Shown here: in pieces, positions 7,140 through 56,283 of the stretch
How positions within the stretch are numbered: position 1 is the stretch's first letter
How the letters are laid out: each line of letters begins with the position of its first letter
From: Lampris incognitus
Taxonomy: Eukaryota > Chordata > Actinopteri > Lampriformes > Lampridae
Length of the DNA: 64,000 bases
Direction: 5' to 3'
NCBI RefSeq assembly: GCF_029633865.1
Contig: NC_079215.1
Span: 50,203,843-50,267,842 of the forward strand
The notes under the pieces: generated by a model
Told to the model about the DNA's origin: nothing
The model's input: the letters and a program-made list of their open reading frames with translations, nothing else
Database searches by the model: none
Translations under genes and position numbers: made by a program

Positions 7140-7505
7140 TTTCTTTATTTTGAGATACTTTATTGATCCCTGTGGGGAAATTACACTCTGCATTTAACCC
7201 ATCCAGTAGTGGGCAGCCGCCATGCAGCACCCAGGGACCAACTCCAGTTCGTCTTGCCATGCCTTGGTCAGGAGCACAAACAGGAGTATTAACCCTAACA
7301 TGCGGGTCTTTTTTTTTTTTGATGGTGGTGGTGGGGGAAACTGGAGCACCCGGAGAAAACCCACCACAGACACGGGGAGCACATGCAAACTCCATACAGA
7401 GGACGACCTGGGGTGACCCCCAAGGTTGGATGACCATGGGGTTCGAACACAGGACCTTCTTGCTCTGAGGCGACAGTGCCAGCCACTGGGCCAGCATACT
7501 GCCAG
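7140..7505 (-). repeat. tRNA-headed SINE, family C, copy 1
   Basis: Minus-strand copy. Its head contains CCACTGG (read as CCAGTGGTTAGC in better copies) and GTTCGAACACAGGACC (inverted B box). Its tail carries TTTATTGATCCC and TGCATTTAACCCATCC. It interrupts repeat B; ATTTG on both sides may be the target duplication. The uninterrupted site is seen in the other repeat B copy near 59420. Confidence 0.8.
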
Positions 7506-8878: not shown

Positions 8879-9036
8879 TGTAGCGAATTCGGGGGACAAC
8901 GCAGCCACAGGAACTGCCGCGGCCGGGACGCGAACCCGTATCGCCCGCACTGCGGGAGACATCGTTAACCAGTCGACTAACGGGTCAGACCCCGCGAGCC
9001 AGCGGCCAGCGTGTCTTCTTATCCACGCACGTTACA
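8879..9036 (-). repeat. Solo LTR of the tRNA-like miniature LTR element (TRIM)
   Basis: 158 bp running TG to CA on both strands, homologous to the two LTRs at 29850 and 30164. Flanks are TTAT at 8875-8878 and 9037-9040, a 4-bp duplication like the TAAT of the complete element. Read on the minus strand it holds an A-box-like TAGTCGACTGG (8979-8969) and a B-box-like GGTTCGCGTCC (8936-8926), starting 43 bases apart as in a tRNA gene. It sits in the dead ZNF862-like gene. The AT-rich flanks make the short duplication less decisive. Confidence 0.75.
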
Positions 9037-27600: not shown

Positions 27601-29905
27601 AAAGTAAAAAGTATTTGGTTCGATGACAGATCTTTCCGTAGCATGGGTGCACACTTCCTGCCAATTTGGGTCGTCAATCGAGATGCCCAAGCCTCTCTCC
27701 CAGGCTTGCTTGATAGCTTGGGAAGTTAGAGATGAGTTGGAATTTAGGGCTTTATAAAACACACCAATGCGTTTCTTTGACACTTGTGAAGACAAGGCCC
27801 TTTCTACATTTGAGGTGGCATTAATAGTTAATATATGAAGTGTCTCATTTGCAAGTATAAAAAATTCACCTTTCTGTAAGCCATATCGCTGCTGCGGCTG
27901 CTGAAAGGATAGTAAAGTCTGGCCATCAAATAAATCGCCTAGCTTTGTTAGCCCCTGGCTTTGCCATACTTCAAAGCCCCAGTCTTGGCAGCCTGGCAGA
28001 AAATCCGGACCATCCAGGATAGGAGTAAGAGAGGATGTTAAATGAGCACAGCCCTCTATAGTACAGATGGACCTCCAGGCTCTGACTGCACTTTGAGTGA
28101 TAGGGTTAGTAGAGAGGTCCTTAACAGACTCAAAGTTATTCACAAACAGCAAATTCCACAATGGACATTTGGACTGAGAGGATTCAATGTCGAGCCAAAT
28201 TGCGGCTGGATCATATCTGAGCCAATCTGCTATCACCCGGAGATGTGCTGCCAACTGTCAAAAGTCTCATAATTTTGGTACATCTAAGCCCCCATCAGAG
28301 CCACCCATTTGGAGTTTTGCCATCTTCAGTCGGGGCTTCCTTTTGCTCCAGATAAAGGAACTCAGCCAGCCTTCGAGCACTTTGATAACCTTATTAGCTA
28401 ACAAAATAGAGATCATTTGCAGTGAGTAGAGTAATCTGGGCAGGATCTTCATTTTAATGAGAGCAATCCTTCCAAGCCAGGAAAGAGGTAAGGGGGCCCA
28501 GCGATCTAAATCTGCCTTTATGGCATCCAGAAGAGGAGGAAAATTGGCTTTAAACATCTGACCATATGTGGATGTTATATACACTCCCAAGTAAATAAAA
28601 CCAGAGGGTGCAATGAAAAGAAAAGGGCCCTGATAAGCCTGGGACCCAAGCGGCGTGACCTCAGACTTTGCTAAATTAATTTTGTACCCTGAAAAGTGCC
28701 AAATGTTGAAATGGCTTGGATTAGGGAGGGAATAGAGGTTTTTGGTTTTGATAAAAAGATCAACGCATCATCTGCATAAAGAGTACTTGTATGCTTCCTC
28801 TCTCCAATGAGAATATCAGATATTAGAGCATTCTGCATTATTACTTGAGCCAGTGGCTCAATAGCAACATCGAAGAGCAATGGGCTTAGAGGGTCGCCCT
28901 GTCTATTCCCACAGTGAAGGGGAAAGTTGCTAGATCTCATCCCATTAGTTAGAACAGCTGCCACTGGAGAATTGTAAAGAACCCTGACCTGATTGACAAG
29001 GTTACTGCCCAGGTAAAATTTCTCCAGTGTATAAAACAAATAAGACCACCCGACCAAGTCAAAGGCCTACTCAGCATCAAGAGAAAGCACAAGGGCAGGG
29101 TCCTTGCAGCCCTGAGATAGCTGAATGATATTAAGGGGCCTGCTCATATTATCACAGGAGTTCTGACCTTTAAGAAAACCGGTCTGGTCCTCCTTAATAA
29201 TGTAAGGTAACACTTTTTCATAAACACACGGCTAGTAATTTGGAAAGCAGTTTTTGATCGGAGTTAAGTAGGGAAATAGACCTATAGGAGGTGCAACTGT
29301 CAGGGCACTTTCCTTTTTTCAGGATAAAGAAGATATTGGCCTCCCTAAGTGATTAAGGTGGGATCCCATTTTCAAATGAATGGTTAAACATAGCCAGCAA
29401 TGGGTCTAACAGAACATTATTAAACTCCTTATAAAACTCACAACCAAAGCCATCTGGCCCTGGAGCCTTGCCCGATGGCATAGACTTCAAAGCAAGCAAT
29501 GCTTCCTCTCTTGTAATTGAGGCATTTAACTGTGGTTTTTGTGGTTCTGTAGCCTTTAGGAGTCTCAGGTCCGAGAAAAATAAGTGCATAACGGCTAGGG
29601 CATTGTCAGGCTGTTCTGACTTATATAAATTGGAGTAAAATAATAATAATAATCTTGAATTCTGAAGTAAAATAGGAAGTGAAATGATCATCTTTGAAAA
29701 GAGATGATTGAAGTCTCCAGCACCTTGACAATGCCCTTTCCTCAGAAAGAGAATAAACCATATATAAAAGGGTGTGGTCAGATAAAATGATGCTACCTAT
29801 GGTACATGACAGAACCAAAACATTTTTGATGAAGGAATGAAAAGGTAATTGTAACATGCACGGATAAACAGACTCGCTAACCCTTGGCGAACGGGTCGGA
29901 CCTTT

Positions 29906-29959
29906 TAGTCGACTGGTTAACGTAGTCGCCCATGGTGCAGGAGACCGGGGTTCACGTCC
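29906..29959 (+). promoter_or_regulatory. tRNA-like Pol III promoter (A and B boxes) in the TRIM 5' LTR
   Basis: TAGTCGACTGG at 29906-29916 fits the A box; GGTTCACGTCC at 29949-29959 fits the B box in eight or nine of eleven positions. The start-to-start distance (43) is that of a normal tRNA gene (44). The anticodon arm is shortened, so it is tRNA-like rather than a tRNA gene. Transcription by Pol III is an inference. Confidence 0.55.
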
Positions 29960-30219
29960 TTGCTGCGGCGGTTCCCGGCTGCCCCCTGAATTTGCTACAT
30001 TGGTGTCAGAAGTGGGATGGTGAGACCGTGAGGCCATCGGAAGCACGTGTGTAAGGATAACGGACTCACTACACACGCTGGGTGCATGTGTACGTGCGCC
30101 CAGAGGCATGAGGGAGCCGATATGCTGAAGCACAGGGACGCGCTTCCAGAAGGAGGGGGGTAGTGTAATGTGCACAGATAAATAGACTCGTTTGCCCTTG
30201 GCTAATAGGTCGGACCCTT

Positions 30220-30273
30220 TAGTCAACTGGTTAGTGTAGTCGCCCGTGGTGCGGGAGACCGGGGTTCACGTCC
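30220..30273 (+). promoter_or_regulatory. tRNA-like Pol III promoter in the TRIM 3' LTR
   Basis: TAGTCAACTGG at 30220-30230 and GGTTCACGTCC at 30263-30273, again 43 bases apart. The B box is identical to that of the 5' LTR, although roughly one base in eight differs elsewhere. Confidence 0.55.
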
Positions 30274-30657
30274 CGGCTGTGGCGGTTCCCGGCTGCCCCC
30301 CGAATTTGCTACATAATGAATTCTAGTATAACTTTTATGGGGGGCAGAGAAAAAAGTAAACTCTGAGTCAGTGGGATGGAACTCCAGCCATACGTCTGAG
30401 TACCCATTGTCATGACATATATAAGTGAGCACCCTGGCTTGCTTTGAAGGATGAGAGAAGCCAGGTGGAAATTTATCAAGAGAGAGCTTAACATGGCAGT
30501 TGAAATCTCCTCCCACAAAAGAATTCGCAAATGCCAGTTCAGTAAATTCTGCAAAGGCCTTAGAGAGAAAATCAGGGGAATAGTCAGGAGGGCAATAGAG
30601 ATTCATAAGAACCGTTTCTTCGCCCATATCGAAAAATCCCACCTTCCCAGTGGCAAG

Positions 30658-31717
30658 ACGTGAGAAAGCTTTTGAATGAGATGGAGACTGCAGGAGTTAT
30701 CCACCCTAGTAAAAGTTCATATGCTTCTCCAGTGGTGATTGTGACTAAGAAGGACGGCACACTGCGATTATGCAATGATTATAGGAATCTCAACTCCTGC
30801 AGCCCTAGGGATGCTTTCCCTCTCCCAAGAATAGAGGAGGCCCTGGAGGATCTGGGGCAAGGAAAGTACTTCTCCAATCTTGACGTCACATCTGGGTACT
30901 GGCAAGTGGAAGTTTCTGAGCGAGATAAGCAAAAGACGGCATTCAGCACACCCATGGGATTATATGAGGCTAATAGAATACCATTATGGTTGCAGAATGA
31001 ACCCTTTACCTTCCAGCGATTAATGACTTGCTGCTTTGGGGATCTGAACTTCACCCACCTTCTCATCTACCTGGATGACCTAATCATTTTCTCTAAGACC
31101 TTTAACTAGCACCTGGAAAGGCTTCAAGTAGTGTTTGACTGGCTGCGTGAGCACAGCCTGAAGCTGAAGCCTTCCAAGTGCCAGCTTGTGAGGAAGGAGG
31201 TTCAGTACCTGGGGCATCTGGTCTCTGCAGAGGGGGTCAGAACTGATCCAGAGAAGATAAGCAAGGTCCGGAACAGGCCAAGACCCACCAGCCAGAAGGA
31301 AGTTCTTCAGTTCCTGGGGTTACTGGGGTATTAGCGACGGTTTGTCAATGGCTTCTCCAAGTTAGCAGCCCCATTTTACTCCCTTACCTCCTGGGACCCT
31401 AGAAAGAAGAAGAGGGGGAGAGAAGTTCTGGGTCAAGGTTCGCCCTTTTGTATGGATGACTGAGTGTGAGGAGGCATTTTGCACCCTGAAAGAAAGGCTG
31501 ACCTCTGCCCCAATACTGGGCTACCCTGACTACAATCTGCCATTTGTGCTCCAAACAGATGCTTCAGGCGATGGGCTGGGTGCTGTGCTGGCGCAGGTCC
31601 AGGATGGGGTTGAGAGGGTTATTGCCTACGCCAGCTGGGGCTTGAGCCCAGCGGAGACACGATATCCTGCACACAAGCTGGAGTTCCTCGCTTTGAAGTG
31701 GGTAATAACAGGTAAGT
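30658..31717 (+). pseudogene. Gypsy element B, reverse transcriptase part
   Basis: Ty3/gypsy reverse transcriptase: MRKLLNEMETAGVIHPSKS, VVIVTKKDGTLRLCNDYRNL, SNLDVTSGYWQV, a changed strand (YEANRIPLWLQNEPFTFQRL) and the YLDDLIIFSKTF box near 31070. After a stop it continues KLKPSKCQLVRKEVQYLGHL and into RNase H (FVLQTDASGDGLGAVLAQ). At 31717 it is split by the LTR element 31718-39850 and resumes at 39851. It abuts the 5' end of the L1/Tx1-like LINE. Dead. Confidence 0.88.
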
Positions 31718-35627: not shown

Positions 35628-38600
35628 AACCCAGCCACTGAGGATGCACAAGCCAGTACATCCTTAGTGCCGGTCCCAAGCCCGGACAAATGGGGAGGGT
35701 TGCGTCAGGAAGGGTATCCGGCGTAAAATCTTTGCCAAATCAAATATGCGGATCATAAATAAGACTTACATACCGGATCGGTAGAGGCCCGGGTTACCAA
35801 CGACCGCCACCGGTACTGTTAACCAGCAGGGTGTCGGTGGAAACTATGCTACTGTTGGGCGAAGGAGAAGGAGAGGGGGAAAGCATGTCCAGAGGCAGCT
35901 AGAGAGGAGGAAGGGTAGGCATGTGGAGGTGAGAGTTGGAACTTTGAATGTTGGCACTATGACTGGTAAAGGGAGAGAGCTGGCTGACATGATGGAAAGA
36001 AGAAAGGTAGGCATACTGTGTGTGCAAGAGACCAGGTGGAAGGGGAGTAAGGCCAGGAGTATCGGAGGTGGGTTCAAACTCTTCTACCATGGTGTGAATG
36101 GGAGGAGTAATGGGGTAGGGGTAATTCTGAAGGAAGAGTATGTCAAGAGCGTGCTGGAGGTGAAGAGAGTGTCAGACAGAGTGATGAGTATGAAGCTGGA
36201 AATTGAAGGTTTATTGCTGAATGTTATCAGCGCATATGCCCCGCAAGTTGGGTGTGAGATGGACGAAAAAGAAGAATTCTGGAGTGAGTTGGACGACATG
36301 GTGGAGAGGGTACCCAAGGAGGAGAGAGTGGTGATTGGAGCGGACTTCAATGGACATGTTGGTGAAGGGAACAGAGGTGATGAGGAGGTGATGGGAAGGT
36401 ATGGAGTCAAGAAGAGAAATGTGGAAGGACAGATGGTGGTCGATTTTGCGAAAAGGATGGAAATGGCTGCGGTGAATACATATTTCAAGAAGAGGGAGGA
36501 ACACAGGGTGACGTACAAGAGTGGAGGAAAGTGCACACAGGTGGACTATATCTTATGTAGAAGGCGCCATCTAAAAGGGATTGGAGACTGCAAGGTGGTG
36601 ACAGGGGAGAACGTAGCTAGGCAGCATCGGATGGTGGTCTGTAGGATGACTTTAGAGACCAAGAAGAGGAAGCGAGTGAAGACACAGCCGAAGATCAAAT
36701 GGTGGAAGTTGAAGAGGGAAGACTATTGTGTGGAGTTCAGGCAGGAGTTAAGACAGGCACTGGGTGGTAGTGAAGAGTTGCCAGATGGCTGGAAAACCAC
36801 TGCAGAAATAGTGAGGGAGACAGCTAGGAAGGTACTTGGTGTGTCATCAGGACAGAGGAAGGAAGACAAGGAGACTTGGTGGTGGAATGAGGAAGTACAG
36901 CAAATTATACAGAGGAAAAGGTTGGCAAAGAAGAAGTGGGATAGTAAGAGAGATGAAGAAAGTAGACAGGAGTACAAGGAGGTGCAGCGTAAAGCAAAGA
37001 GAGAGGTGGCAAAGGCAAAGGAAAAGGCGTATGGTGAGTTGTATGACAGATTAGACACTAAGGAAGGAGAAAAGGACTTGTACCGATTGGCTAGACAGAG
37101 GGACCAAGCTGCAAAGGATGTGCAGCAAGTTAGGGCGATCAAGGATAGAGATGGAAATGTGCTGACAAGTGAGGAGAGTGTGCTAAGAAGGTGGAAGGAA
37201 TACTTTGAGGGGCTGATGAATGAAGAAAATGAGAGAGAGAGAAGGTTGGATGATGTAGGGATAGTGAATCAGGAAGTTCAGCGGATTAGCAAGGAGGAAG
37301 TGAGGGCAGCTATGAAGAGGATGAAGAATGGAAAGGCAGTTGGTCCTGATGACATACCTGTGGAGGCATGGAGATGTTTAGGAGAGATGGCAGTGGAGTT
37401 TCTAACTAGATTGTTTAACACAATCCTGGAAAGTGAGAGGATGCCTGAGGAGTGGAGAAGAAGCATACTGGTACCGATTTTCAAGAACAAGGGCGATGTG
37501 CACAACTGTAACAACTACAGAGGTATAAAGTTGATCAGCCACAGCATGAAGATTTGGGAAAGAGTAATAGAAGCTAGGTTAAGAGGAGAGGTGACGATCA
37601 GCGAGCAGCAGTATGGTTTCATGCCACGAAAGAGCACCACAGATACGATGTTTGCTTTGAGAATGTTGATTGAGAAGTATAGAGAAGGTCAGAAAGAGTT
37701 GCATTGTGTCTTTGTAGATTTAGAGACAGCTTATGACAGAGTGCCGAGAGAGGAGGTGCGGTATTGTATGAGGAAGTCAGGAGTTGCAGAGAAGTATGTA
37801 GGAGTGGTGCAGGATACGTATGAGGGAAGTGTGACAATGGTGAGGCGTGCGGTTGGAATGACAGATGGGTTCAAGGTGGAGGTGGGATTACATCAAGGAT
37901 CGGCTCTTAGCCCTTTCTTGTTTGCAATGGTGATGGACAGGTTGACGGACAAGATCAGGCAGGAGTCTCCATGGACGATGATGTTCGCGGATGACATTGT
38001 GATCTGTAGCGAGAGTAGGGTGCAGGTCGAGGAGAGCCTGGAGAGGTGGAGGTATGCACTGGAGAGAAGAGGAATGAAAGTCAGTAGGAGCAAGACGGAA
38101 TACCTATGCGTGAATGAGAGAGAGGACAGTGGAATGGTCAGGATGCAAGGAGTGGAGGTGACAAAGGCATCTGAGTTTAAATACTTGGGGTCAACTGTCC
38201 AAAGTAACGGGGAGTGCAGTAGAGAGGTGAAAAAGAGAGTGCAGGCAGGTTGGAGTGGGTGGAGAAGTGTGTCAGGAGTGATTTGCGACAGAAGGATATC
38301 AGCAAGAGTTAAAGGGAAAGTTTACAAGATGGTTGTGAGACCAGCTATGTTATATGGTTTGGAGACAGTGGCACTGACGAAAAGACAGGAGGCGGAGCTG
38401 GAGATGCTAAGATTTTCACTGGGAGTAACGAAGAAGGACAGGATTAGGAACGATTATATTAGAGGGACCGCTCAGGTTGGACGGTTTGGAGACAAAGCAA
38501 GAGAGGCAAGATTGAGATGGCTTGGACATGTGTGGAGGAGAGATGCTGAGTATATTGGGAGAAGGATGCTGAATATGGAGCTGCCAGGGAAGAGGAGAAG

Positions 38601-38751
38601 AGGAAGGCCAAAGAGGAGGTTTATGGATGTGGTGAGGGAAGACATGCAGGTGGCTGGTGTGACAGAGGAAGATGCAGAAGACAGGAAGAAATGGAAATGG
38701 ATGATTCGCTGTGGCGACCCCTAACGGGAGCAGCCGAAAGTAGTAGTAGAG
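35628..38751 (+). mobile_element. Full-length RTE-clade LINE, copy 1
   Basis: 3,124-bp non-LTR element with a 16-bp target duplication, GGTCTGTTACTGAGCT, at 35612-35627 and 38752-38767. The 5' UTR starts AACCCAGCCACTGAGGATGC; the 3' end is GTGGCGACCCCTAACGGGAG then a TAG-repeat tail. It sits in the internal region of the LTR element. A near-identical copy is at 44306-47450. Confidence 0.93.
35785..38724 (+). CDS. RTE endonuclease-reverse transcriptase, nearly intact
   Basis: Open from 35785 to 38724. Endonuclease: RVGTLNVGTMTGKG (35929), VQETRWKGSKA, ISAYAPQ, VIGADFNGHVG, DYILCRR. Reverse transcriptase: MKNGKAVGPDDIPVEAW (near 37320), NYRGIKLISH, FMPRKSTTD, FVDLETAYDRVPRE, GLHQGSALSPFLF and FADDIVICSES (near 37990). 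It ends with a DNA-binding-like RWLGHVWRRD and CGDP. Copy 2 starts at an ATG farther upstream (44423); here that frame has a TAG at 35782-35784, so the first in-frame ATG is 35959, inside the endonuclease motif. Five residues present in copy 2 near 47080 (VAELK) are deleted at 38400. It is therefore probably inactive, though young. Confidence 0.88.
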   Translation, partial: RPGLPTTATGTVNQQGVGGNYATVGRRRRRGGKHVQRQLERRKGRHVEVRVGTLNVGTMTGKGRELADMMERRKVGILCVQETRWKGSKARSIGGGFKLFYHGVNGRSNGVGVILKEEYVKSVLEVKRVSDRVMSMKLEIEGLLLNVISAYAPQVGCEMDEKEEFWSELDDMVERVPKEERVVIGADFNGHVGEGNRGDEEVMGRYGVKKRNVEGQMVVDFAKRMEMAAVNTYFKKREEHRVTYKSGGKCTQVDYILCRRRHLKGIGDCKVVTGENVARQHRMVVCRMTLETKKRKRVKTQPKIKWWKLKREDYCVEFRQELRQALGGSEELPDGWKTTAEIVRETARKVLGVSSGQRKEDKETWWWNEEVQQIIQRKRLAKKKWDSKRDEESRQEYKEVQRKAKREVAKAKEKAYGELYDRLDTKEGEKDLYRLARQRDQAAKDVQQVRAIKDRDGNVLTSEESVLRRWKEYFEGLMNEENERERRLDDVGIVNQEVQRISKEEVRAAMKRMKNGKAVGPDDIPVEAWRCLGEMAVEFLTRLFNTILESERMPEEWRRSILVPIFKNKGDVHNCNNYRGIKLISHSMKIWERVIEARLRGEVTISEQQYGFMPRKSTTDTMFALRMLIEKYREGQKELHCVFVDLETAYDRVPREEVRYCMRKSGVAEKYVGVVQDTYEGSVTMVRRAVGMTDGFKVEVGLHQGSALSPFLFAMVMDRLTDKIRQESPWTMMFADDIVICSESRVQVEESLERWRYALERRGMKVSRSKTEYLCVNEREDSGMVRMQGVEVTKASEFKYLGSTVQSNGECSREVKKRVQAGWSGWRSVSGVICDRRISARVKGKVYKMVVRPAMLYGLETVALTKRQEAELEMLRFSLGVTKKDRIRNDYIRGTAQVGRFGDKAREARLRWLGHVWRRDAEYIGRRMLNMELPGKRRRGRPKRRFMDVVREDMQVAGVTEEDAEDRKKWKWMIRCGDP

Positions 38752-44305: not shown

Positions 44306-47300
44306 ACCCAGCCACTGAGGATGCACAAGCCAGTGCATCCTTAGTGCCGGTCCCAAGCCCGGACAAATGGGGAGGGTTGCGTCAGGAAGGGCATCCGGCG
44401 TAAAATCTTTGCCAAATCAAATATGCGGATCATAAATAAGACTTACATACCGGATCGGTTGAGGCCCGGGTTACCAACGACCGCCACCGGTACTATTAAC
44501 CAGCAGGGTGTCGGTGGAAACTATGCTACTGTTGGGCGAAGGAGAAGGAGAGGAGGAAAGCATGTCCAGAGGCAGCTAGAGAGGAGGAAGGGTAGGCATG
44601 TGGAGGTGAGAGTTGGAACTTTGAATGTTGGCACTATGACTGGTAAAGGGAGAGAGCTGGCTGACATGATGGAAAGAAGAAAGGTAGGCATACTGTGTGT
44701 GCAAGAGACCAGGTGGAAGGGGAGTAAGGCCAGGAGTATCGGAGGTGGGTTCAAACTCTTCTACCATGGTGTGAATGGGAGGAGAAATGGGGTAGGGGTA
44801 ATTCTGAAGGAAGAGTATGTCAAGGGCGTGCTGGAGGTGAAGAGAGTGTCAGACAGAGTGATGAGTATGAAGCTGGAAATTGAAGGTTTATTGCTGAATG
44901 TTATCAGCGCATATGCCCCGCAAGTTGGGTGTGAGATGGATGAAAAAGAAGAATTCTGGAATGAGTTGGACGACATGGTGGAGAGGGTACCCAAGGAGGA
45001 GAGAGTGGTGATTGGAGCGGACTTCAATGGACATGTTGGTGAAGGGAACAGAGGTGATGAGGAGGTGATGGGAAAGTATGGAGTCAAGAAGAGAAATGTG
45101 GAAGGACAGATGGTGGTCGATTTTGCGAAAAGGATGGAAATGGCTGTGGTGAATACATATTTCAAGAAGAGGGAGGAACACAGGGTGACGTACAAGAGTG
45201 GAGGAAAGTGCACACAGGTGGACTATATCTTATGTAGAAGGCACCATCTAAAAGGGATTGGAGACTGCAAGGTGGTGACAGGGGAGAGCGTAGCCAGGCA
45301 GCATCGGATGGTGGTCTGTAGGATGACTTTGGAGACCAAGAAGAGGAAGCGAGTGAAGACACAGCCGAAGATTAAATGGTGGAAGTTGAAGAAGGAAGAC
45401 TGTTGTGTGGAGTTCAGGCAGGAGTTAAGACAGGCACTGGGTGGTAGTGAAGAGTTGCCAGATGGCTGGAAAACCACTGCAGAAATAGTGAGGGAGACAG
45501 CTAGGAAGGTACTTGGTATGTCATCAGGACAGAGGAAGGAAGACAAGGAGACTTGGTGGTGGAATGAGGAAGTACAGCAAATTATACAGAGGAAAAGGTT
45601 GGCAAAGAAGAAGTGGGATAGTCAGAGAGATGAAGAAAGTAGACATGAGTACAAGGAGATGCAGCGTAAAGCAAAGAGAGAGGTGGCAAAGGCAAAGGAA
45701 AAGGCGTATGGTGAGTTGTATGACAGGTTAGACACTAAGGAAGGAGAAAAGGACTTGTACCGATTGGCTAGACAGAGGGACCAAGCTGCAAAGGATGTGC
45801 AGCAAGTTAGGGCGATCAAGGATAGAGATGGAAATGTGCTGACAAGTGAGGAGAGTGTGCTAAGAAGGTGGAAGGAATACTTTGAGGGGCTGATGAATGA
45901 AGAAAATGAGAGAGAGAGAAGGTTGGATGATGTAGGGATAGTGAATCAGGAAGTTCAGCGGATTAGCAAGGAGGAAGTGAGGGCAGCTATGAAGAGGATG
46001 AAGAATGGAAAGGCAGTTGGTCCTGATGACATACCTGTGGAGGCATGGAGATGTTTAGGAGAGATGGCAGTGGAGTTTCTAACTAGATTGTTTAACACAA
46101 TCCTGGAAAGTGAGAGGATGCCTGAGGAGTGGAGAAGAAGCATACTGGTACCGATTTTCAAGAACAAGGGCGATGTGCACAACTGTAACAACTACAGAGG
46201 TATAAAGTTGATCAGCCACAGCATGAAGATTTGGGAAAGAGTAATAGAAGCTAGGTTAAGAGGAGAGGTGACGATCAGCGAGCAGCAGTATGGTTTCATG
46301 CCACGAAAGAGCACCACAGATGCGATGTTTGCTTTGAGAATGTTGATTGAGAAGTATAGAGAAGGCCAGAAAGAGTTGCATTGTGTCTTTGTAGATTTAG
46401 AGAAAGCTTATGACAGAGTCCCGAGAGAGGAGGTGTGGTATTGTATGAGGAAGTCAGGAGTTGCAGAGAAGTATGTAGGAGTGGTGCAGGATACGTATGA
46501 GGGAAGTGTGACAATGGTGAGGTGTGCGGTTGGAATGACAGATGGGTTCAAGGTGGAGGTGGGATTACATCAAGGATCGGCTCTTAGCCCTTTCTTGTTT
46601 GCAATGGTGATGGACAGGTTGACGGACAAGATCAGGCAGGAGTCTCCATGGACGATGATGTTCGCGGATGACATTGTGATCTGTAGCGAGAGTAGGGTGC
46701 AGGTCGAGGAGAGCCTGGAGAGGTGGAGGTATGCACTAGAGAGAAGAGGAATGAAAGTCAGTAGGAGCAAGACGGAATACCTATGCGTGAATGAGAGAGA
46801 GGACAGTGGAATGGTCAGGATGCAAGGAGTGGAGGTGACAAAGGCATCTGAGTTTAAATACTTGGGGTCAACTGTCCAAAGTAACGGGGAGTGCAGTAGA
46901 GAGGTGAAAAAGAGAGTGCAGGCAGGTTGGAGTGGGTGAAGAAGTGTGTCAGGAGTGATTTGCGACAGAAGGGTACCAGCAAGAGTTAAAGGGAAAGTTT
47001 ACAAGATGGTTGTGAGACCAGCTATGTTATATGGTTTGGAGACAGTGGCACTGACGAAAAGACAGGAGGCGGAGCTGGAGGTGGCAGAGTTGAAGATGCT
47101 AAGATTTTCACTGGGAGTAACGAAGAAGGACAGGATTAGGAACGATTATATTAGAGGGACCGCTCAGGTTGGACGGTTTGGAGACAAAGCAAGAGAGGCA
47201 AGATTGAGATGGCTTGGACATGTATGGAGGAGAGATGCTGAGTATATTGGGAGAAGGATGCTGAATATGGAGCTGCCAGGGAAGAGGAGAAGAGGAAGGC

Positions 47301-50030: not shown

Positions 50031-50054
50031 GTGGAGTAATTGGAACGGCTCAAC

Positions 50055-52363
50055 ATGTCGAAGTTTAATCCACTGGAAGAGTTTAAGTTTGCCAGCCCAG
50101 GTGAATGGCCGGAGTGGAAGCAAAGATTTTCGCGTTTCAGGACAGCCACCAAGTTCAACAAAGAGGACGGGGAAGTCCAGGTCTGTTCGCTCATTTACGA
50201 TATGGGCAGTGAGGCTGAAAAGATATTCAGCTCATTCAAGTTTGAAGAGGAGGCCCATGGGAGAGATTACAAAGCCATTTTGAAGAAATTCGACAACTAC
50301 TTCATTCCAAGACGGAATGTAATACATGAAAGCGCATGCTTTTATCAGAGGAGTCAGCTACCCGGTGAGAAAGCAGAAGCGTACATAAGAGTTCTGTATG
50401 AGCTAGTAGAGAACTGTGAGTTTGGCGACAAAAGCGATGAACACATCCGTGATAGACTGGTCATGAGTAGCAGAGATATGGAGTTGTCTAAGAGGTTTCA
50501 GCTAATCACAGACTTGACGCTAGCACAAGTCATCCAGCAAGTGCAGCAGTCCGAGGAGGTTGCTAGACAGATTAGCCTCCAGACCTACCCACCGGAGCGG
50601 CAGGTGGCTTATGTTAACGCCGACAGATGGTGAACGGAGCAACACGGGGAGGGAAACACTTCAAAAATCACATCCAAGGATGTAGGGTAGCACTCAGCAA
50701 TTTGAAAAAGGACAGGGGCTGTGCCTCATTTTCACCAATTTATTTTGACCCGCAAAACATGCTACAGGCCTGCCCCTGTCCTTTTTCAAATTACTGAGTG
50801 CTACCCTACATCCTTGGATGTGGTTTTTGAAGTATATGTTTTTTGGGGTTAGCACCACAGTAAGAGTTTCTTTTTGGGAAGGCGCATCCAACTCCTCCAT
50901 TACAAGGAAGGGTAACACGTCACGAGAAGATACAAGCAGCCCTAGAAAGGTCCAGAACTGCGGTAGGTACCGCACTCTGCACTATGATAAAAAGAAATAC
51001 CCTGCTTTTAAGAGTACATGTAAAAAGTGCAATAAGCAAGGAGGTTGGGCACGAGTGTACCATACCAAAACGCTGAATGAAGTCACAGAGTGTATGGGAC
51101 AGTTTCCGTTTCTGGGTGAAGTTAGTGAAGCAGCAAGCCAAGATAAATGGACTGTTACACTCAACATTGGAAATGTACCCCTGACTTTTAAAATAGATAC
51201 TGGGGCAAATGTGACTGTTATAAGTGAAAAGACATTCCAGACACTTCCTAGAGCCTATAGACTGGGTCCTACAGAGATACCTTTTTTGGACCAGGGGGAG
51301 AGCTCCATTGTATGGGCTGGTTCAGAGCTAATACTGTCTACAGAGACAAAGAATACACTTTCCCATATATGTGATTGGAGGAAAAGGCAGCAGTCTGCTC
51401 AGTCACCCAGAAGCAGTTAAAATTGGTTTAGTGAAGACAGTAGAGCAGGTTGGCACTGTGTTCGGAACCAGTGGCCTGCTAAAGACTGAATCTGTTAAAG
51501 TCATTCTCAAAGATGCTAAGCCATACGCAGTGCACACTGCTAGACACATACCACTGCCACTTATGCCTCTAGTTAAGAACAAGTTACACTGTTGGAAAAG
51601 GAGAGCATCGTTGAAAAGTGACAGCCCACAGAGTGGTGCACTGCCATGGCCTCAGTTCTAAAGTCTAACAGAAAAGAGGTCCGGTGCTGTGCTGATTTAA
51701 GGGAACTAAATCGTGCAGTTAAAAGGGAACGGTATGTGCTACCTACTACAGAGGAAATCATGCCATGGCTCTCAGGTGTTCTCTAAGACGCAGCCAGTGG
51801 ATTTTACCAGATTCCCCTGCATGAGGAAAGCCGCAATGTAACCATTTTCCTCACTCCCTTTGGGAGGTATGCTTTCCGCAGACTCCCATTTGGGATAACG
51901 AGTGCGCCAGAAATCTTCCAATGAAAAATGGCAGAAACTTTACAGGGGCTGGAAGAAACGGAAGTCTATATGGATGACATCCTCGTGCACGGAGAAACTG
52001 AGGCGATCCATGATAAACGTCTAAAGCAGGTACTGAAAGTGATCGAGGCAGCCGGCCTTAAATTGAACAAAGACAAATGTAAGTTCAGACAGAGACAGAT
52101 TCGCTTCCTGGAACACATATTTGAGGAGAGCGGTATGAGACCCGACCCAGAGAAAGTGGCTAGGATTAGAAATTTCCCACAACCTCATAATGTGGCAGAG
52201 CTCAAGCGGTTTCTAGGAAAGGTCAATTATACGGCCAAATTCAGAGTTCTCTACAGCAGGACAACTGCTCTATGAACTGCTGAAGTCGAAGGTGGAATGG
52301 CTGTGGGGACATGCACAGCAGACTGCCTTCCAGAGACTGAAGACTGCCTTAGCGTCAGCTTTT
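50055..52363 (+). pseudogene. Gypsy element C: gag, protease and reverse transcriptase
   Basis: The gag frame from ATG 50055 (MSKFNPLEEFKFASPGEWPE) runs ~190 residues with the retrotransposon-gag pattern (EWKQRFSRFRTATKF, FIPRRNVIHESACFYQRSQL) to a stop at 50631. After a foldback insert (50658-50833) come a degraded zinc knuckle (KSTCKKCNKQGG), protease (VPLTFKIDTGANVTVISEKT, near 51190), and RT in pieces: LPLMPLVKNKL, DFYQIPLHEESRN-like text in a broken frame, then YMDDILVHGETE near 51966, LKLNKDKCKFRQRQIRFLEH and PQPHNVAELKRFLGKVNY. It stops in early RNase H (near 52360). No LTR was found. Dead. Confidence 0.85.
50658..50833. repeat. Young foldback/MITE-like palindrome inside gypsy C
   Basis: 62-bp arms (50658-50719, 50772-50833) differ at only two positions and enclose a 52-base loop. 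The arm starts ACTTCAAAAATCACATCC. It separates gag from the zinc knuckle. I could not find a target duplication. Confidence 0.85.
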
Positions 52364-54285: not shown

Positions 54286-54652
54286 CATGCTCATTAATCC
54301 AGGTAAGAAAATCAAAGAAAGCTGAATCAATTCATCTGTGATATGCTTATCAACAGATACGTTTCATCACTTAGCACTCATCTAAGTGACCTCTTCAGTC
54401 TAAACTGAATGCAGGTATCCCCACCCTTATAAACAATACAGTTGCATGATGACCGAAACCAATGATCGGTTTCGTATGCAAATATGGGCATGACCATTAA
54501 CTACAGTTTCAATGGCCATGTGTACTATTCACAGAAGATTTGGGAATGTTTGCAATCTCAGCATCTCGGTTGCTTTCAAACCCCAAAACATGCTGTGGCA
54601 GAAGTTGGTCCACCCCAAGGATCTGGTCCCCCGGCACAAACAGAGCAATATA

Positions 54653-55875
54653 CACTCACTGGCCACTTTATTAGGTACACCTTGCTAGTACCGGGTTGGA
54701 CCCCCTTTTGCCTTCAGAACTGCCTTAATCCTTCGTGGCGTAGATTCAACAAGGTACTGGAAACATTCCTCAGAGAGTTTGGTCCATATTGACATGATAG
54801 CATCACGCAGTTGCTGCAGATTTGTCGGCTGCACATCCATGATGCGAATCTCCCGGTCCACCACATCCCAAAGGTGCTCTATTGGATTGAGATCTGGTGA
54901 CTGTGGAGGCCATTTGAGTACAGTGAACTCATTGTCATGTTCAAGAAACCAGTCTGAGATGATTCGAGCTGTATGACATGGCGCGTTATCCTGCTGGAAG
55001 TAGCCATCAGAAGATGGGAACACTGTGGTCATAAAGGGATGGACATGGTCAGCAACAATACTCAGGTAGGCTGTGGCGTTGACACGATGCTCAATTGGTA
55101 CTAAGGGGCCCAAAGTGTGCCAAGAAAATATCCCCCACACCATTACACCACCACCACCACCAGCCTGAACCGTTGATACAAGGCAGGATGGATCCATGCT
55201 TTCATGTTGTTGACGCCAAATTCTGACCCTACCATCCGAATGTCGCAGCAGAAATCGAGACTCATCAGACCAGGCAACGTTTTTCCAATCTTCTATTGTC
55301 CAATTTTGGTGAGCCTGTGCGAATTGTAGCCTCAGTTTCCTGTTCTTAGCTGACAGGAGTGGCACCCGGTGTGGTCTTCTGCTGCTGTAGCCCATCTGCC
55401 TCAAGGTTCGACGTGTTGTGCGTTCAGAGATGCTCTTCTGCATACCTCGGTTGTAATGAGTGGTTATTTGAGTTACTGTTGCCTTTCTATCAGCTCGAAT
55501 CAGTCTGGCCATTCTCCTCTGACCTCTGGCATTAACGAGGCATTTTGGCCCACAGAACTGCCGCTCACTGGATATTTTCTCTTTTTCAGACCATTCTCTG
55601 TAAACCCTAGAGATGGTTGTGCATGAAAATCCCAGTAGATCAGCAGTTTCTGAAATACTCAGACCAGCCCGTCTGGCACCAACAACCATGCCACGGTCAA
55701 AGTCACTTAAATCACCTTTCTTCCCCATTCTGATGCTCGGTTTGAACTGCAGCAGATCGTCTTGACCATGTCTACATGCCTAAATGCATTGAGTTGCTGC
55801 CGTGTGATTGGCTGGTTAGAAATTTGCGTTAACGAGCAGTTGGACAGGTGTGCCTAATAAAGTGGCCGGTGAGTG
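54653..55875 (-). mobile_element. Tc1/mariner transposon, complete
   Basis: 1,223 bp flanked by TA (54651-54652 and 55876-55877). The ends are inverted repeats of about 30 bp: CACTCACTGGCCACTTTATT on the left and CACTCACCGGCCACTTTATT read from the right. The undisturbed target (GCAATATAGTGTACG) is seen in the sister Penelope copy at 59926. It holds one intact transposase gene. Confidence 0.95.
54685..55728 (-). CDS. Tc1/mariner transposase, intact, DD36E spacing
   Basis: 347 residues from a true ATG to TAG, full length for the superfamily. N-terminal paired helix-turn-helix region ([20 protein letters not shown], then [16 protein letters not shown]). The catalytic triad is visible: WSDESRF (first Asp), [10 protein letters not shown] (second Asp) and [12 protein letters not shown] (Glu). 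I count 36 residues between the second Asp and the Glu, not the 34 of classical Tc1, matching the DD36E group (described as Incomer). [13 protein letters not shown] segment lies between the first two Asp. There are no stops, so it could still be, or recently was, active. Confidence 0.92.
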
Positions 55876-56283
55876 TAGTGTACGCTGTTAAATGCCAGGA
55901 GGATTGCCATGACTTGTACATTGGGGAAACTAAACAGACGCTGGCCAAGAGAATGGCAAAACACAGGAGAGCGAATGCGTCAGGACTCCGCAGTCTACAG
56001 CCATCTACAGGCCAGGGGCCACTCTTTCAAGGATGAGGATGTGCACATCCTTGATAGGGAGGAACGCTGGTTTGTATCCAGATGAACTGATTCAACTTTT
56101 CTTTGATTTCCTCAGAATTCTATCTCCAAAATATATTGGCACTATTTAAGGTTAGAAAAAGATTTTTTTCCCGAATCCATATCACTATTTTATCTTCAAA
56201 ATCTTCACATTCAATTCATCATTCCAGCTAAAAAAAACGAAAGAAAAAAAAACGAAAAATAAGAGTAATGGCATACAATGTCT

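Follow-up and report, generated by a model that had tools for sequence, protein, structure and literature searches.

A Helenus-type miniature retrotransposon in Lampris incognitus and its hybrids with a candidate Gypsy helper

We analysed a 64,000-nucleotide stretch of the Lampris incognitus genome (contig C6, positions 50203843-50267842; hereafter the window) together with whole-genome searches over 1.48 Gb, with a focus on a 464 bp element at window positions 29850-30313. It belongs to a family of terminal-repeat retrotransposons in miniature (TRIMs), some copies of which are joined to a Gypsy family that we call GypA. The element had been predicted from the sequence alone to be a long terminal repeat (LTR) retrotransposon, and its LTRs, primer-binding site (PBS), polypurine tract (PPT) and flanking TAAT target-site duplication (TSD) were all re-found in the order typical of such elements. 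The features of the family in the window are as follows.

29846..29849, no strand: left TSD, TAAT
29850..29999, plus strand: 5′ LTR, 150 bp
29906..29916, plus strand: A box TAGTCGACTGG in the 5′ LTR, fitting TRGYNNANNGG
29949..29959, plus strand: B-box-like GGTTCACGTCC in the 5′ LTR, one mismatch to GGTTCRANNCC
30001..30018, plus strand: PBS, 18 nucleotides, complementing the 3′ end of (Leu-like) tRNA genes of the same genome
30053..30092, plus strand: internal insert with approximate BLAST ends, without a BLAST match in the other sampled copies
30148..30160, plus strand: PPT AGAAGGAGGGGGG, then TAG
30164..30313, plus strand: 3′ LTR, 150 bp
30219..30274, plus strand: tRNA-like stretch in the 3′ LTR, aligned without gaps to human tRNA-Asp (56 columns)
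30314..30317, no strand: right TSD, TAAT
8879..9036, minus strand: solo LTR from a related subfamily within this TRIM family, 158 bp, with TTAT on both sides

The two LTRs of the window element run from TG to CA and are 86.7% identical, with 20 mismatches over 150 positions, 17 of which are transitions. They enclose 164 bases that open with a single T followed by the 18-nucleotide PBS TGGTGTCAGAAGTGGGAT and close with the purine tract and TAG. The window copy carries about 40-47 additional bases in its interior, and one other copy of similar length is listed, on contig C26. The original prediction had reported no coding frame, which stands insofar as no Pfam family was matched at E up to 1, although a 201-amino-acid minus-strand frame (29621-30226) runs across the element. 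Its absence of coding capacity, its TRIM size and the presence of a PBS and a PPT are features shared with the TRIMs named Helenus by Kojima (2024; PMC10886601). We consider it likely, as part of the overall explanation developed below, that the window element is an old insertion of a Helenus-type non-coding TRIM that has since decayed.

As predicted, the PBS follows the 5′ LTR by one base. It is the exact complement of the last 18 bases of a tRNA 3′ end with the added CCA, and the corresponding genes end in GGTTCGAATCCCACTTCTGACA, a sequence present at 39 genome places and at none for the reversed control. Rfam scores two of three inspected GGTTCGAATCCCACTTCTGACA places as tRNA interrupted by a long insertion in the anticodon region, whereas ARAGORN calls one of three as Val and nothing in the other two. 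From their sequence and by comparison with human tRNA-Leu-CAA, we take the two Rfam-scored primer genes to be intron-containing tRNA-Leu.

Across the genome, the junction of LTR end and PBS occurs at 7,321 places with up to two mismatches, a limit that also admits some GypA hybrids, and at none for the reversed control, placing the element structure beyond chance. For alignment, 58 records yielded 160 LTR matches, of which 73 partial ones and the duplicates from overlapping loci were dropped, leaving 81 distinct full-length LTRs. Exact 4-bp TSDs flank 11 of 21 family copies (8 of 16 whole and 3 of 5 solo, about 0.08 being expected by chance at equal base frequencies), with ATAT making up four of the 11. 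This count excludes 12 chains belonging to longer arrays and retains L021 as ‘solo’ although a PBS variant follows it; an earlier pass without array sorting gave 9 exact TSDs out of 26. Adjacent LTR pairs are 74.7-97.4% identical (26 pairs), indicating insertions of varied age. Arrays of the form LTR-interior-LTR-interior-LTR are common, and 11 of 100 listed junction places belong to same-strand groups with spacings below 340 bases. The exact PBS/interior start had no match in either a viral or a general genome contig collection.

Inverted neighbour copies are frequent (L021, L027, L032, L086/L087, L112), the TSD sequence of L112 being common to the next copy, and could reflect self-integration or repeated targeting of similar sites. 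At L067 (C1, about 9870039, minus strand) a second TRIM family is, by inspection, fused to the first in the order LTR1-PBS2-interior2-LTR2-PBS1-interior1. This second family carries a different tRNA-like module and the PBS TTGGTGGCAGCGGTGGGAT, presumably the complement of a different tRNA-Leu.

The A- and B-box-like sequences that had been noted 43 bases apart in each LTR are indeed separated by that distance from start to start, which is close to the spacing found in tRNA. Both are largely kept in the family: TRGYNNANNGG is present at LTR positions 57-67 in 69 of the 81 aligned LTRs, and the B-box core GGTTCRNNNCC at 100-110 in 57. The seven required A-box positions are conserved above the four free ones, a partition that ranks first of 330; when the same mask is slid along the LTR, 6 of 140 positions score equally well, the A box among them. 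Mean conservation over the 81 LTRs is 0.921 in the A box and 0.905 in the B box, compared with 0.827 between the boxes and 0.879 for the whole LTR. In an initial set of 43 LTRs, conservation across windows of 11 bases is highest for those starting at 50-53, which reach into the A box from just upstream of it, and for those starting at 139-140, at the LTR end. A second A-box-like site, farther from the B box, lies at LTR 36-46 in 55/81.

Similarity to tRNA was also assessed by score. The match to human tRNA-Asp scores above every one of 500 shuffles in each of the three window LTRs, and among six other human tRNAs the same is true of Gly for two window LTRs, of Glu for one and of the remaining four for none. 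When the comparison was made with 20 tRNA loci of the same genome (Thr, Cys, Lys, Ala and Arg, none of them Asp), the number of shuffles out of 300 that scored lower was 299 for the 3′ LTR, 294 for the 5′ LTR and 265 for the solo LTR, and 38 of the 81 LTRs exceeded the 95% point of the shuffles. The tRNA-derived LTR sequence that characterises Helenus is therefore present by score, with a negative covariance model. A 17-base match to tRNA-Asp had been predicted; it is found in the 3′ LTR against the human sequence, but the exact match is a property of the window copy and not of the family majority. An Rfam scan of 29500-30700 gave no match at E up to 1, and hence no 5S rRNA in the LTR.

These observations suggest, on balance, that the family is transcribed by Pol III (RNA polymerase III) from the tRNA-like part of its LTR. 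Several results weigh against this. Only 45 of the 81 LTRs keep both boxes, the strict B box GGTTCRANNCC occurs in none, and B-box position 7 is C in 70. The tRNA covariance model found no match in the window element or 20 family loci and ARAGORN no tRNA in the window or 18 family loci, and a folded tRNA gene within the LTR was rejected on these results. Furthermore, TTTT is present in only seven of the 81 LTRs, leaving the RNA 3′ end without an explanation; AAAA is depleted too, so the depletion of TTTT is not specific. A short, Cassandra-like R region ending at T4 beside the A box was also considered, as the window 5′ LTR has CCTTTTAG, and was dropped because the family majority is CCCTTTAG and so few LTRs have any TTTT.

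The same lack of a tRNA fold, the deviant B-box position 7 and the rarity of TTTT would be accommodated if the TRIM were moved by GypA while its tRNA-like stretch was a relic of an old SINE (short interspersed element) or tRNA insertion, with transcription by Pol II (RNA polymerase II) from neighbouring or cryptic promoters. We regard this as possible but doubtful, given the pattern of conservation in the A box, the near-tRNA spacing of the boxes and the scarcity of Pol II signs (TATAWA in 0/81 and AWTAAA in 1/81 LTRs). Conserved boxes are moreover described for Helenus generally in the relevant passages of PMC10886601.

For the proteins that move the TRIM, the original prediction had suggested another gypsy element. 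GypA, an autonomous Gypsy element with the same PBS and similar LTR ends and PPT, is a candidate. It was found in a search for the PBS kept after a CA end other than the usual TRIM LTR end, which returned 455 places. Twenty of these, picked by the bases before the PBS and not at random, were fetched and comprise eight GypA, eight TRIMs with an altered end, two hybrids (L091 and L103) and two places assigned to neither class (L102 and L104). In one GypA copy, the LTRs measure about 327 bp (96.5% identical over the 198 bp compared), the TSD is ATAT and a 1203-amino-acid open pol frame encodes reverse transcriptase, RNase H and integrase in Gypsy order. Its 18-nucleotide PBS is that of the TRIM, its PPT is GGAGGGGGTAA (before TGTA) versus GGAGGGGGGTAG in the TRIM, and its LTR ends are TGTARCG...TTCGCCACA versus TGTAACG...TTCGCTACA in the TRIM majority. 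Two places in the GypA LTR carry AATAAA/ATTAAA signals, and nothing in this LTR matches the A box or GGTTCR. In a BLAST comparison of the TRIM with pieces of one GypA copy, the PBS alone aligned beyond 10-base matches, which rules out the TRIM as an internally deleted GypA. There are 92 normal GypA junctions in the genome. L102 (C2:150142070-150142730) has a non-TRIM sequence with the same PBS and another leader, and is perhaps a second Gypsy family; L104, whose left side could not be identified as an LTR, was left out of the chimeras.

Hybrids between the two elements were recovered with two patterns for a GypA U5 end followed by the PBS and TRIM interior, which matched 11 and 30 places (8 in common, 33 in union) and none in the reversed controls. 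Twelve of the 33 were inspected, covering the whole of the 11-place pattern (ten hybrids plus L133) and nine places of the other (all hybrids). In 11 of the 12, a GypA LTR stands against the PBS and is followed by TRIM interior; in the exception, L133, the GypA piece is only 43 bp. A first, shorter pattern gave 2,317 matches and was useless for counting because the TRIM ends differ from those of GypA by only two bases there; L117 and L119 derive from it and lie outside the 33. Of the 19 junction candidates (L114-L124, L126-L133), 11 have a GypA LTR against the PBS and eight do not, and these 11 with L091 and L141 (a composite on contig C9) make 13 inspected hybrids. Seven of them (L126-L132) carry GypA LTRs 90-98% identical to the examined copy, joined to the TRIM subfamily of the solo LTR at 8879-9036, which lies 20 kb from the window element and is 73% identical to its LTRs. 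The GypA matches of L114, L115, L117 and L119 are weaker (70-87%) and that of L091 extends over about 95 bp only, which makes the existence of older hybrids as well probable.

Eight of the 13 hybrids could be tested for TSDs; the GypA LTR is incomplete in L091, L114, L115 and L126, and L141 was assessed within its composite. Six have exact 4-bp duplications (ATAT in four, GTAT and TTAT) and two are off by one base, the LTR end of L117 having been placed two bases past the BLAST end. The C9 composite consists of a TRIM LTR and GypA leader at one end and a GypA LTR, TRIM interior and TRIM LTR at the other, with GTAT on both outer sides; it was judged from its two ends, which lie about 5 kb apart. 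The reciprocal arrangement of TRIM LTR, PBS and GypA leader occurs at nine places. Four of these, the C9 composite being one, were inspected and each has a full TRIM LTR against the PBS, with a GypA 3′ LTR end at the expected distance for the place on C11. In L103, another LTR-like sequence, with two AATAAA, is joined to TRIM interior and has ATAC on both sides, the left ATAC being common to an adjacent inverted TRIM.

Ordinarily, reverse transcription generates the two LTRs of a new copy from a single plus-strand strong-stop DNA, and they are identical at the start. An integrated unit with two unlike LTRs is what an intermolecular strand transfer at the shared PBS would be expected to produce, and we consider the hybrids strong evidence, at the level of sequence, that GypA particles copied and integrated the TRIM family. 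In the proposed mechanism, TRIM RNA would probably be initiated by Pol III within the tRNA-like segment of the 5′ LTR and packaged into GypA particles, where tRNA-Leu would prime reverse transcription at the shared PBS before integration with a 4-bp duplication. GypA strong-stop DNA, ending in a copy of the PBS, could then anneal to the TRIM minus strand and thereby join unlike LTRs at the PBS. Such an event would require the two cDNAs to share a particle and the integrase to tolerate a GypA end paired with a TRIM end. The hybrids are not expected to breed true, and each therefore probably arose independently.

Against this account, the TSD and pol evidence for GypA comes from one copy only, few hybrids involve the LTR subfamily of the window element itself and those that do (L114, L117) are more diverged, and the reciprocal places on C2 and C25 have no GypA 3′ LTR at the expected distance. 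In addition, the exact TSD of L131 lies in an AT repeat and carries little weight, and 10 of the 21 family TSDs are inexact, six with one mismatch and four worse. Taken as a whole, the account of a Helenus-type TRIM with Pol III-started RNA, GypA particles, tRNA-Leu priming, 4-bp integration and later decay is nevertheless one that we think likely to be right. The more specific proposal, that GypA repeatedly packaged, reverse-transcribed and integrated a Pol III-made RNA, with the hybrids recording both genomes in one particle, we favour narrowly. If true, it would provide sequence-level evidence for the helper of a TRIM with a Pol III promoter, in a partnership long enough to have left old and young hybrids.

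Joining at the PBS, the sole stretch of any length common to GypA and the TRIM, could in principle also arise by ectopic DNA recombination between the PBSs of separate GypA and TRIM insertions after their integration. This is very unlikely, since an exchange between separate insertions should bring unlike flanks together, whereas six of eight hybrids have the same four bases on both sides (one of them in the AT repeat), the other two are off by one base, and the C9 composite has matching GTAT. A tandem pair of SINEs in place of an LTR element, which the tRNA-like boxes and the occurrence of tandem arrays might bring to mind, is refuted by the family anatomy: the LTR-PBS-PPT order is kept, the TSDs are 4 bp rather than long, the PBS complements a tRNA 3′ end, the ends are TG...CA, solo LTRs have TSDs and no A-tail is seen by inspection.

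In the hybrid L129 (C21:48261580-48262780), the TRIM part is itself an array (LTR-interior-LTR-interior-LTR), and ATAT flanks the whole on either side. This arrangement suggests that an array can serve as the unit of copying.

Whether this kind of element had been described was left open by the original prediction, and it has been: Kojima (2024) gave the name Helenus to TRIMs with tRNA-like promoters in their LTRs and, in animals, 4-bp duplications (PMC10886601). As presented in that paper, Helenus elements, including LTR-11_DR of zebrafish, resemble the present family in being short non-coding LTR elements with tRNA-like A and B boxes in the LTRs, in their 4-bp TSDs, in having tRNA-Leu among the vertebrate primers and, for zebrafish, in their thousands of copies and tandem arrays (LTR-11_DR). 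A-box position 4 is mostly T here, compared with TRGCY in most Helenus of the same source. The present family fits Helenus by the tested features, with a negative tRNA fold, in a comparison by description rather than by consensus sequence. For animal Helenus, the similarity to Gypsy given in the pertinent passages of PMC10886601 is confined to the PBS region, whereas here a specific Gypsy family and hybrids are identified; one fungal Helenus family has interior similarity to a Copia element (PMC10886601).

The ray-finned hosts in Table 1 of PMC10886601 belong only to Acipenseriformes, Cypriniformes, Siluriformes and Gonorynchiformes. Over 568 columns, a 593-amino-acid RAG1 frame of the Lampris incognitus genome shares 89.6% identity with Lates and 84-85% with two cyprinids, and a FastTree phylogeny of 18 RAG1 sequences puts the host among euteleosts, outside the cyprinids and a percomorph cluster, with no firm placement. 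As a euteleost host outside the ray-finned orders of that table, it looks like an extension of the Helenus host range.

Among other miniature elements, Cassandra is similar in having a type of Pol III promoter in its LTRs and tandem LTR-interior arrays (PMC7215508), and differs in being 5S-based and from plants, where the present family is tRNA-like and animal. Passages of PMC7215508 also describe conserved Pol III terminators in Cassandra, unlike the seven of 81 LTRs with T4 here. The pair ta-TRIM/lennie of Echinococcus shares a tRNA-Leu PBS and a helper proposed from LTR ends, PBS and TSD length, but lennie copies have frameshifts in pol (PMC4558846), unlike the open pol frame of GypA. The words ‘polymerase III’ and ‘chimeric’ are absent from the text of the ta-TRIM paper (PMC4558846). 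By its own account in the passage concerned, no helper candidate had been put forward before that of ta-TRIM (PMC4558846), and the corresponding passage of PMC10886601 gives no indication of a helper for Cassandra.

Which element moves TRIMs is an old question. For rice, chimeras of Dasheng and RIRE2 were reportedly found by Jiang et al. in 2002. Dasheng is likewise a non-autonomous LTR element with an autonomous partner (cited in PMC4558846 and PMC3031573), but it is large and, according to a passage in a citing paper, extensively similar to RIRE2. We found no report of hybrids of this sort for TRIMs in the literature searched, which consisted mostly of titles and the beginnings of abstracts and included few subscription papers. 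Nothing on Helenus TRIMs beyond Kojima (PMC10886601) was found in later work, mostly judged by title, and the part seen of a meeting report mentions Helenus (PMC12859917). Within this literature, evidence for a helper appears to be new for Helenus-type TRIMs. PBS-joined hybrids with TSDs provide a direct and searchable signature of shared particles, applicable to any TRIM-bearing genome.

The window contains further mobile elements. Positions 50040-52275 hold a frame with weak aspartyl-protease similarity below the Pfam cut-off and, by inspection, a reverse transcriptase-like frame; this is a probable remnant of another Gypsy-like element, for which no LTR pair was found at 50-52 kb in the window. 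Two long and similar open frames of a non-LTR retrotransposon lie at 35923-38724 and 44423-46939, the second known from the list of open reading frames only. The first encodes endonuclease and reverse transcriptase domains, and its top-ranked match, from Silurus asotus, is 80% identical. Finally, a Tc1/mariner-like transposon at 54639-55889 has a 347-amino-acid open transposase frame between inverted repeats.
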